From: Bacillota bacterium
GTDB taxonomy: Bacteria > Bacillota > Dethiobacteria > Dethiobacterales > Dethiobacteraceae
NCBI GenBank assembly: GCA_012523945.1
Contig: JAAYSO010000049.1
Location: 1-34,564 of the forward strand
Direction of reading: 5' to 3'
Length of the DNA: 34,564 nt
Shown here: positions 20,809 through 23,903 of the stretch, one piece after another
How positions within the stretch are numbered: position 1 is the first letter of the stretch
How the letters are laid out: each line of letters opens with the position of its first letter
Program-made: the position numbers and the translations under genes
Notes under the pieces: generated by a model
The model's database searches: none
The model's input: the letters and a program-made list of their open reading frames with translations, nothing else
What the model was told of the DNA's origin: nothing

Positions 20809-21669
20809 TTACTGCAGCCAGCTCTTCACTAAATCCCTGTTTTGCTCCAGCCAGACTTTAGCCGCTTCATTCTTATCATCATATTCTTCCATCAGGGAAA
20901 TCAAGCCGCCAAACTGTTCCGGTGTCAGATAGTAATTAGCCAAAAACTCATTTATTTCAGGATAATCATCGGCAAATCCCGCACGGGTAAAGGCATTTAT
21001 TGTTTCTTCCCCGCCGTAGACATTGGCCGGGTCTTCCAGGAACTTCAGGTCAAAGGTGCCAAATTTCCAGTGCGGAGCCCACCCGGTAACCACAATCCAC
21101 TCCTCATTTTCAATGGCAGTTTTTAATTCTGCAGCCATGGCGGCATCACTGCCCTCCATCAATGACAGCTCCAGATCATATACCTCAATGGCATTCTTTG
21201 TTGCTTCCATAATGCCGGCACCGGCATCAATCCCGGTGATACGTCCACCGAATTTATCTTTGTGCGCGTTTAATTCCTCAATAGAGTCGATCTCAACATA
21301 GGCCGGAACAACCAGCCCAATAGCAGCACCATTATATAAAGGTCCCAAATCCACCACATCATCCTGTAGTTTATCGAAATAAGACTGGTGAGTTAACGGC
21401 AACCATGCCGTCACCATAAAATCAATATCACCGGTGGCTACACTCTGCCACAGAATCCCTGCCTGCAAATCATGCAGATTCACCTTCACATCAAACTCTT
21501 CTTCCAATAGATTTTTCACCATATAAGAGTTAGCAGTAGCACAAGCCCAGTTCACATACCCTAGATCAATCTCTGCAGCACTTTTTTTCTCATTGGCACA
21601 CCCGGCAACAAATAGAGCAAGTACAAAAACAAAAACCAGTAATAAAACTAAATTCCTTTGCTTAAAAAT
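20809..21669 (-). CDS. opuAC: Glycine betaine/proline ABC transporter receptor lipoprotein, unusual start
   Basis: The extracellular substrate-binding protein of a betaine-type ABC importer. The mature part shows the OpuAC/ProX family segments VNWACATANSY, GDIDFMVTAWLPLTHQSY and VTGWAPHWKFGTFDLKFLEDP, with the tryptophans that form the cage for quaternary amines. Upstream of the first normal start (GTG at 21555) the frame continues through a perfect lipoprotein signal peptide: KQRN, a hydrophobic stretch and lipobox FVAGC. No ATG, GTG or TTG precedes it; an in-frame TGA lies at 21676-21678. The best candidate start is ATT at 21667-21669, ten bases after AGGAGG, giving 286 residues. A base error or small frameshift is the alternative. 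Third gene of the operon, 22 bases after the permease gene. Confidence 0.85.
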   Translation of the reverse strand: MFKQRNLVLLLVFVFVLALFVAGCANEKKSAAEIDLGYVNWACATANSYMVKNLLEEEFDVKVNLHDLQAGILWQSVATGDIDFMVTAWLPLTHQSYFDKLQDDVVDLGPLYNGAAIGLVVPAYVEIDSIEELNAHKDKFGGRITGIDAGAGIMEATKNAIEVYDLELSLMEGSDAAMAAELKTAIENEEWIVVTGWAPHWKFGTFDLKFLEDPANVYGGEETINAFTRAGFADDYPEINEFLANYYLTPEQFGGLISLMEEYDDKNEAAKVWLEQNRDLVKSWLQ

Positions 21670-21691: not shown

Positions 21692-22531
21692 TTAGTGAGC
21701 AATTTCTTTTTCTTTACGAGTCCCTTGAGTCAGCCGGTCCAAAATAATAGCAATAATCACAACGGCGATTCCGCCTTCAAAGCCTAAACCCACATCCAAA
21801 TTGGACAGACCGTTTAACACAACAGAGCCAAGTCCGCCGGCACCAATCATGGAGGCAATAACAACCATGGACAAGGAAAGCATGATACACTGGTTAACGC
21901 CGGCCATTATGGTCGGCAGAGCCTGCGGCAGCTCCACTTTTAACAGCATCTGGAACCAGTTTGAACCAAAGGCTTCACCTGCTTCTACCAGTTCTTTAGG
22001 CACCTGGCGAATAGCCAGATTCGTTAAACGAATGGTAGGCGGCATGGCAAAAATAACAGTTGAAATTACAGCAGGCACAGCCCCCATGCGAAAGATCATA
22101 ATCGCCGGAATCAGGTAAACAAAAGCAGGCATGGTTTGCATAAAGTCCAATACCGGATGTAAAAGTCGGTCTAAAATATCCGACTTGGCTGCTAAAATTC
22201 CTGTAGGAATCCCAATTAAAAGCGCCAGCAAAGTGGCTTCAATCACTAAAGATAAAGTAATAATGGTTTCCGGCCATAAATCTATAGCAGCAATGAAGAG
22301 AAGTCCTGCCAGAGTAAAAAGTGCAACTCTTTTACCGGCCAGGAAGTAGGCAATAACGGCTACCATAATAGCCACTAACCAGAACGGCGGCAGCTCCAGC
22401 AGGAATACTAACTGTTCATTTACCCATAAGAGAATTACTTTAATCCAATCAAAGGGTAAGGCAAATGTTACCCGCACGAAATCAACCAGAATTTCAAAAA
22501 AACCACCGACAGGAAGTCTAGGCACTTTCAT
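21692..22531 (-). CDS. opuAB: Glycine betaine/proline ABC transporter permease
   Basis: The membrane channel subunit of the betaine importer, about 279 residues. It has roughly seven hydrophobic segments and the conserved ProW/OpuAB loop GEAFGSNWFQMLLKVELPQALPTIMAGVNQ, the contact site for the ATPase. Other family motifs are QTMPAFVYLIPAI and FAMPPTIRLTNLAIR. It overlaps the ATPase gene by about 14 bases, so it is translationally coupled; GTG at 22534 is an alternative start three bases upstream. The N-terminal helical part before about residue 80 is as in OpuAB. Confidence 0.95.
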   Translation of the reverse strand: MKVPRLPVGGFFEILVDFVRVTFALPFDWIKVILLWVNEQLVFLLELPPFWLVAIMVAVIAYFLAGKRVALFTLAGLLFIAAIDLWPETIITLSLVIEATLLALLIGIPTGILAAKSDILDRLLHPVLDFMQTMPAFVYLIPAIMIFRMGAVPAVISTVIFAMPPTIRLTNLAIRQVPKELVEAGEAFGSNWFQMLLKVELPQALPTIMAGVNQCIMLSLSMVVIASMIGAGGLGSVVLNGLSNLDVGLGFEGGIAVVIIAIILDRLTQGTRKEKEIAH

Positions 22532-23717
22532 CACCCCTTTCCGGGATTAATGCCCTTAACACACTGCTCTTTACAATTACACCCATCAGCCTGCCGCCTT
22601 CACTGACTACCGCCACCGGTATAGACGACTTTAGCGTCAGTTCAATTAAATCCATCACACAATAATCAGGTTCAACTCTCACTACTTCATTTTCGCGCAC
22701 AATATTGCGGAGCGTTTGTTCGCCACGCCTAATTGCTGCTATGAGGTCATCAACAAAAACTATACCGGCAAGTTTCATCCCTTCTTTTGTAACCAAAATG
22801 GATTCAATCCCATGCTTCTTACATTCTTTCAGGGCCAGTCGCGGACCCTGGTTTATACCGACTGTTGTCCAGGGTTTAACCATAATATCAGCAGCCGTCA
22901 ATACTTCACTGCGGTTTACACCTTGCACAAAGCGACGAACATATTCATCGGCCGGATTAGTGAGAATTTCCTCTGCAGTACCGATCTGCACCGTCTGCCC
23001 GTCCTTCATCAGCATAATCCGATCCCCAAGTTTTAAAGCTTCATCCAGGTCATGCGTAATGAATATTATTGTTTTTTTCATTTTGGCTTGTAATTCGATT
23101 AATTCATCCTGCATGTCACTGCGAATCAGTGGATCTAATGCACTGAAAGCTTCGTCCATCAGTAGAATTTCAGGGTCATTGGCCAGAGCCCGGGCAATAC
23201 CCACACGTTGCTTCATGCCCCCGCTCAGCTGATCGGGATAGCTTTCTTCATATCCCTGCAGCCCGACCAAGGCCAAAGCTTGCTCTGCTTTTTCCTGCCG
23301 TATTGCTTTATCAACTCCTTGTACCTCCAGGCCATATTCTGTGTTAGCTAAAATGGTACGATTAGGAAACAGGGCAAAGTTTTGAAAAACCATACTCATC
23401 ACTGTACGCCGGGTTTGCAAAAGTTCTTTTCTATCCATTTCCAGGATGTTTCTGCCATCCAGTAATATTTCCCCGGCAGTTGGCTCAACCAGACGGTTAA
23501 GACAGCGCACAACAGTAGATTTTCCACTTCCGGAGAGCCCCATAATCACAAAGGTCTCTCCCTCTTCGACCTCAAAATTTGCATTATTAATGCCAACAGT
23601 TAAACCTGTTTCCCGGAAAATCTGCTCTTTGCTGCATCCCTCCTGTAAAAGTTTGAGTCCACGTTTAGGGTTAGAACCAAAAATTTTATATAACCCTTTG
23701 ACTACCAACTTACTCAT
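22518..23717 (-). CDS. opuAA: Glycine betaine/proline ABC transporter ATP-binding protein with CBS domains
   Basis: The ATPase subunit of the importer, 399 residues. Walker A is GLSGSGKST (60-68), Q-loop VFQNFALFPNRT, signature LSGGMKQRVGIARAL, Walker B ILLMDEAFSALD and H-loop ITHD, followed by two CBS domains from about 275 to 395 (ADIMVKPW... and VVRVEPDYCVMDLIEL...). In OpuA-type transporters the CBS pair senses ionic strength or c-di-AMP, so this system is probably osmoregulatory; that is inference. First gene of the operon, start ATG with GAGGAGG nine bases upstream, behind a structured leader. Confidence 0.96.
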   Translation of the reverse strand: MSKLVVKGLYKIFGSNPKRGLKLLQEGCSKEQIFRETGLTVGINNANFEVEEGETFVIMGLSGSGKSTVVRCLNRLVEPTAGEILLDGRNILEMDRKELLQTRRTVMSMVFQNFALFPNRTILANTEYGLEVQGVDKAIRQEKAEQALALVGLQGYEESYPDQLSGGMKQRVGIARALANDPEILLMDEAFSALDPLIRSDMQDELIELQAKMKKTIIFITHDLDEALKLGDRIMLMKDGQTVQIGTAEEILTNPADEYVRRFVQGVNRSEVLTAADIMVKPWTTVGINQGPRLALKECKKHGIESILVTKEGMKLAGIVFVDDLIAAIRRGEQTLRNIVRENEVVRVEPDYCVMDLIELTLKSSIPVAVVSEGGRLMGVIVKSSVLRALIPERGDESA

Positions 23718-23744
23718 TAATTTAATCCTCCTCGTTACAAAGCC

Positions 23745-23795
23745 AAAAAAAAATGTATGAAGAATTCATACATTTAAACACATAAATGTAAATTC
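23745..23795 (-). promoter_or_regulatory. Attenuator-like leader of the betaine transporter operon
   Basis: In the transcript, AAAUGUAUGAA pairs with UUCAUACAUUU (23751-23761 with 23765-23775, loop of three) and is followed by a run of U residues at 23745-23750, an intrinsic terminator placed before the ribosome binding site. An upstream segment GAAUUUACAUUU (23784-23795) can instead pair with the first arm of that terminator (AAAUGUAUGAAUUC, 23762-23775), with a two-base bulge, giving a mutually exclusive antiterminator. The sequence GTGTTTAAA occurs twice, 28 bases apart (23773-23781 and 23801-23809). What would switch the structure is unknown. Confidence 0.55.
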
Positions 23796-23816
23796 ACAAA
23801 TTTAAACACCTCTTAA

Positions 23817-23845
23817 ATTCTATCTTCCTTTAGCCTCTTAGTCAA
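23817..23845 (-). promoter_or_regulatory. Sigma-A promoter of the betaine transporter operon
   Basis: TTGACT (23840-23845) and TAGAAT (23817-23822) on the minus strand with a 17-base spacer, about 95 bases before the opuAA start. Confidence 0.7.
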
Positions 23846-23903
23846 AAAGGCTCACAGAGGCTCTCAGCAGCTAAAAGCTCCCGTAATCGCCTCCATTCAT
23901 ATT

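Follow-up and report, generated by a model that had tools for sequence, protein, structure and literature searches.

How is the glycine betaine transporter operon of this Bacillota bacterium controlled, and does the short RNA ahead of its first gene act as a switch? The locus lies in a stretch of 34,564 nt, analysed as a whole and hereafter called the window, in which leader, promoter and operon are all on the minus strand. An earlier note had assigned the operon to glycine betaine transport, and protein family matches agree. The first gene, opuAA/proV (22518-23717, start codon ATG at 23717), encodes the ATP-binding subunit of 399 aa and scores 442.6 bits against TIGR01186 for a cut-off of 326.6. 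It is followed by an opuAB-type permease gene (21692-22534), with ChoW/ProW family matches under the equivalog cut-offs, and by a gene of uncertain start for an opuAC-type substrate-binding protein (20809-21555), which matches TIGR03414 under its cut-off.

A consensus scan placed a sigma-A promoter, TTGACT-17-TAGAAT, ahead of opuAA, with the -35 element at 23840-23845, the -10 element at 23817-23822 and 10 matches out of 12 for the two together. Transcription would start near 23810. Downstream, at 23751-23775, stands the intrinsic terminator AAATGTATGAA-TTC-TTCATACATTT, whose AU-rich arms (23775-23765 and 23761-23751) form 11 perfect pairs around a 3-nt loop and run into a T9 tract (23745-23753, U9 in the RNA); hairpin and tract together lie 28 nt ahead of the opuAA start codon. 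The Shine-Dalgarno sequence AGGAGG follows at 23727-23732. The proposed succession of sigma-A promoter, AU-rich terminator and ribosome binding site was therefore confirmed. The hairpin is unique in the 34.5-kb window, being its sole perfect hairpin of at least 10 bp with such a T-run, and the 101-nt region gave z = -2.4 when folded as the plus strand. AU-rich hairpins are weaker terminators than GC-rich ones, and the opuA hairpin may halt few polymerases. Around the promoter, an inverted repeat, TTTAGCCTCTTAG / CTCAGCAGCTAAA (13 nt, 77%, window 23829-23875), flanks the -35 region, which AGCCTCT-N16-AGAGGCT likewise spans.

No Rfam 15 family matched the leader at its gathering score, the only elements found in the window being a T-box leader (18195-17971, minus strand) and an FMN riboswitch (19194-19060, minus strand) elsewhere. 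The suggestion that the leader matches no known riboswitch class is thus borne out.

Analysis of the leader itself revealed a direct repeat of 19 nt, 17 of them identical, with copies 28 nt apart. Copy 1, GTGTTTAAATTTGTGAATT, begins at about transcript position +2 (23791-23809), and copy 2, GTGTTTAAATGTATGAATT, includes the 5' arm of the terminator (23763-23781). The earlier note had described GTGTTTAAA repeats 28 bases apart; both are present at that spacing (23809-23801 and 23781-23773), inside a repeat that is longer than it had stated. A 17/19 repeat was equalled in 9 of 3000 dinucleotide shuffles, and no further copy occurs elsewhere in the window. Past the 19 nt, copy 1 runs on as TACATTTAT and copy 2, after CTTCA, as TACATTTTT. 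The leader thus has the look of a hairpin unit, some 28-32 bp in size, that was duplicated in tandem. A duplication of this kind would by itself allow the 3' part of copy 1 to pair across with the 5' part of copy 2, and this pairing is the very antiterminator that had been proposed.

This possible antiterminator joins TACATTTA (23783-23790) to TAAATGTA (23769-23776), the latter overlapping the terminator 5' arm, in a helix of 8 bp with a 6-nt loop. Since 3.1% of dinucleotide shuffles of the upstream part reach a Watson-Crick match of at least 8 bp to the terminator arm, the pairing stands out only slightly for DNA this rich in AT. Each repeat copy has a palindromic TTTAAA core, and these cores can also pair with each other, forming a larger 5' hairpin absent from the earlier note (23772-23807, 15 pairs including G-U), which coexists with a 7-bp terminator. 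At 37 °C, the predicted energies were -9.1 kcal/mol for the terminator, -5.9 for the antiterminator, -6.3 for the 5' hairpin that joins both copies, and -11.9 for this hairpin plus the 7-bp terminator. Predicted pair probabilities were about 0.01 for the antiterminator (about 1% occupancy) and 0.99 for the upper terminator stem, figures from which co-transcriptional kinetics could depart.

The claim of a mutually exclusive antiterminator consequently stands in part. An 8-bp helix can form on the first arm of the terminator, as an alternative to it; as a switch, the claim meets an energy difference that favours the terminator, an occupancy of about 1% and an origin as a by-product of duplication. 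A true attenuator, in which a protein, an ion or an RNA would stabilise this helix and disable the terminator under osmotic stress, draws on the overlap of the two helices, matched in 3.1% of shuffles, and on the ease with which temperature shifts AU-rich helices. Besides the low occupancy and the duplication, it is opposed by the roughly 20 nt ahead of the antiterminator, probably too little for a typical aptamer, and by the failure to find the antiterminator in the closest homologues (L032-L036), so that we consider it quite unlikely. More salt would stabilise the terminator, and simple ionic sensing would tend toward the wrong sign.

The nearest OpuAA proteins are those of two Clostridia metagenome-assembled genomes, L032 and L033 (74%), and a maximum-likelihood tree groups the window protein with those of L032, L033, L034 and L036. 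Neither the terminator helix nor the antiterminator helix of the window was found in the leaders of these four, and the conservation of both helices in relatives, which the earlier note had looked for, failed wherever a comparison could be made. As the contig of the genus mate starts inside opuAA, this comparison rests on more distant relatives. Near-identical leader DNA, sought in the window's own genome, its genus and a plasmid collection, returned nothing but the leader itself, and no close homologue of it was found. The L032 and L033 leaders do contain a hairpin followed by a U-tract, unrelated in sequence to that of the window, with energies of -15.0 and -17.4 kcal/mol for shuffle means of -7.2 and -9.9. 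A predicted terminator therefore recurs in the closest relatives, but with another sequence and without the antiterminator. These opuA leaders of another type (L032:2280-2500 and L033:2240-2500, plus strand) show a palindrome at the -10 element and a CCAGCT...AGCTGG terminator, the 3' arm of which could pair with an upstream CCAGC.

What the window does share with these two relatives lies over the promoter. The segment GATAGAATTTAAG around the -10 element is identical in the window, L032 and L033, over TAGAAT each time. In L033, it is half of a palindrome of 13 bp, GATAGAATTTAAG-N6-CTTAAATTCTATC, and at the matching position the window has a 7-bp dyad, AATTTAA-N7-TTAAATT (23799-23819), which extends across -10/+1 and may be a DNA operator. 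A repressor could bind this dyad, and perhaps also the repeats spaced by 28 bp, the hairpin being passive. The shared segment, palindromic over the -10 element in these relatives, argues for such an operator, as does the repression of opuA-type operons by BusR elsewhere (PMC8517857). The 13-mer is not strong evidence alone, however, because it includes the -10 consensus hexamer and because one unrelated leader has an equally long chance match elsewhere. BusR, a GntR-RCK_C repressor, recognises GAC-N22-GTC (PMC8517857). Homologues occur in the L032, L033 and L037 genomes, and none was detectable in the genome of the window or of its genus mate. GAC-N22-GTC is matched three times in the window, a chance number, and none of these matches is near opuA. 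Control of this opuA operon by BusR was rejected, as neither the regulator nor an operator site near opuA was found. With a dyad of only 7 bp and no candidate regulator identified, the operator reading is improbable. Dyads such as GTACAGTTTGAACTGTAC, possibly repressor operators, also occur upstream of opuAA in the Bacilli L038, L039 and L043.

When opuA leaders were surveyed across the class, terminators 28-39 nt ahead of opuAA came up in other members. That unrelated leaders repeatedly place a terminator directly ahead of opuAA favours attenuation as the way in which this operon tends to be controlled. It also weighs against a hairpin devoid of regulatory function, i.e. a stabiliser of the mRNA 5' end or a fixed terminator limiting leakage. 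The same anatomy would serve such a role, and nothing in the sequence demands regulation, but a stabiliser needs no U9 directly after a perfect stem. We regard this as a modest possibility, on the unlikely side.

We give about an even chance to the reading of the leader as a short 5' untranslated region of the opuA operon, under terminator control and with partial read-through. Transcription would begin near 23810, and the AU-rich hairpin and U9 would be expected to halt most polymerases some 60-66 nt further on, those reading through being predicted to yield the opuAA-opuAB-opuAC mRNA. The leader would have arisen when a hairpin unit of about 28-32 bp was duplicated in tandem, as the 19-nt repeat with 17 identities suggests, and copy 1 could pair either with the TTTAAA core of copy 2 or with the first arm of the terminator. 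The leader RNA would weaken the terminator only if something slowed or held the upstream copy. Expression would probably be set by partial read-through together with promoter control, the dyad over -10/+1 being partly shared with the closest relatives. Taken alone, the window leader is ordinary in kind and adds one more candidate attenuator in osmolyte transport.

The same survey led to a more important RNA. In eight class-level relatives, the terminator located 28-39 nt before opuAA lies inside a block of conserved sequence some 250 nt long, and a covariance model, R1, was built from these eight leaders. R1 detected 14 copies in 12 of 98 genomes of the class, one of which (G010) belongs to the family of the window, and gave matches in 32 of 398 genomes of the phylum, the two weakest (E about 0.009) not being relied on. 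A sample centred on G491 consisted largely of the same Bacillota genomes again. No match was obtained in 198 genomes of another phylum (that of L104), nor in the window or its genome. A derivation of the window leader from this RNA, as a remnant, was rejected, given the missing R1 match and the position of its OpuAA in a different OpuA clade: in the tree, the 12 OpuAA proteins whose genes carry the RNA lie apart from the window clade, 11 of them forming one clade.

The collected members number 40 (alignment A4) and include L005:1231-1477 (plus strand), L142, L147, L152, L160, L164, L165, L168 and L173. None of those scanned matched an Rfam 15 family at the gathering score; at relaxed E-values, seven loci returned just spurious snoRNA and miRNA matches. 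We found no published description of this RNA in the open-access literature.

Inspection of the downstream genes, assigned by reading translations where no library was run, showed that 39 of the 40 members precede genes for opuA, ablA, BCCT, OpuC-type, ectoine-type or polar-amino-acid ABC systems. The RNA stands before opuAA in 12 members and before the lysine 2,3-aminomutase gene ablA in nine, two of which were tested and both exceeded the AblA equivalog cut-off. Fifteen members precede an SBP_bac_3 ABC transporter; three of these transporters were tested, and that of L160 passed the EhuB ectoine cut-off. Two members are found before a BCCT transporter, one before an OpuC-type betaine ATPase exceeding the proV cut-off, and one (L181, a weak match) before another gene. 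These gene partners point toward osmotic adaptation. At L006:975-1475 (plus strand), a c-di-AMP riboswitch lies upstream of a member preceding opuAA, forming a natural tandem; a tandem of Na+ and c-di-AMP riboswitches has been described before ablA (PMC9337991).

The structure of this RNA was examined on alignment A4, which comprises 43 rows of R1 matches, including three short reverse-strand ones. The antiterminated form has 57 pairs, with 93.3% of cells paired and two-sided changes at 50 pairs; none of 500 shuffles did as well, and slid versions reached 31-43%. Relatedness among the sequences inflates such covariation counts, but the slid controls retain this relatedness and yet fall far below. 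A helix GCTT:AGGC, joining A4 columns 304-308 to 460-463, pairs in 99.4% of cells with 16 two-sided changes; as it is absent from the R1 structure, it had no part in shaping the alignment. A second helix links the segment ahead of the conserved GAACTGGGG to the segment past CACTCTAAC. It forms in each of the 37 non-redundant members, with a length of 4-7 bp, and its preference for its own partner was equalled in none of 2000 shuffled pairings. One helix is nested within the other, with an internal loop of conserved letters between them, and together they enclose a four-way junction whose three hairpins are contiguous; in our reading, the last hairpin resembles a kink-turn. In the alternative fold, a 13-bp terminator occupies the same 3' strand as the antiterminator, so that the two, both supported by covariation, exclude each other.

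Another antiterminator, pairing TTTAGGGTG with CACTCTAA, was considered for this RNA and dropped, as it is broken in L164 and L165. In six members of A4 (L154, L155, L156, L161, L162 and L177), the conserved internal loop has AAAGG-like / TAGT-like letters in place of AACTGG / TAAC, a joint change of its two sides. These members all precede SBP_bac_3 ABC operons and perhaps constitute a subclass with another ligand.

The architecture of the RNA is that of a transcription-attenuating riboswitch, with a direction of switching that we infer, and makes it a strong candidate for an undescribed riboswitch class. We think it probable that this Bacillota RNA of about 250 nt, not in Rfam 15, forms a new class of riboswitch that senses the osmotic state, be it through an ion, an osmolyte or else a nucleotide messenger. 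By transcription attenuation it would control a regulon for taking up and making osmoprotectants, comprising the opuA, BCCT and OpuC-type transporters of betaine, ABC transporters of the ectoine and polar-amino-acid types, and lysine 2,3-aminomutase (beta-lysine). If true, it would be a new class of RNA sensor linking the accumulation of betaine, ectoine and beta-lysine in Bacillota. Its gene partners, and the covariation behind both its terminator and its antiterminator, give it more importance than the window leader.

Among known systems, the window leader resembles transcription-attenuation leaders in its promoter, short length, terminator before the ribosome binding site and overlapping alternative hairpin, but this hairpin is weak, is not conserved and can be put down to the duplication, and a sensor domain is lacking. 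The c-di-AMP riboswitch (ydaO/yuaA, RF00379) controls osmolyte and potassium genes and, in the class relative L006, lies about 390-530 nt upstream of opuAA; the window leader is far too short for it, and neither the window nor its genome gave a match. BusR-controlled busA/opuA operons likewise encode a betaine ABC transporter, whereas in the genome of the window no BusR was found and no GAC-N22-GTC site lies near the promoter. For the RNA of about 250 nt, the proX motif (SRC-29-1), described with 17 representatives, mainly in Spiribacter, and with occlusion of the ribosome binding site (PMC8632094), is also a candidate riboswitch ahead of a betaine transporter gene; our RNA differs by its terminator and its occurrence in Bacillota, a separation made by description rather than by sequence. 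The Na+-I riboswitch (DUF1646 motif, PMC9337991) differs from our RNA, which is about 250 nt long, has a four-way junction and gives no Rfam gathering match, but both stand before ablA and osmolyte genes and both have an intrinsic terminator, a likeness to which the c-di-AMP tandem of L006 can be added.
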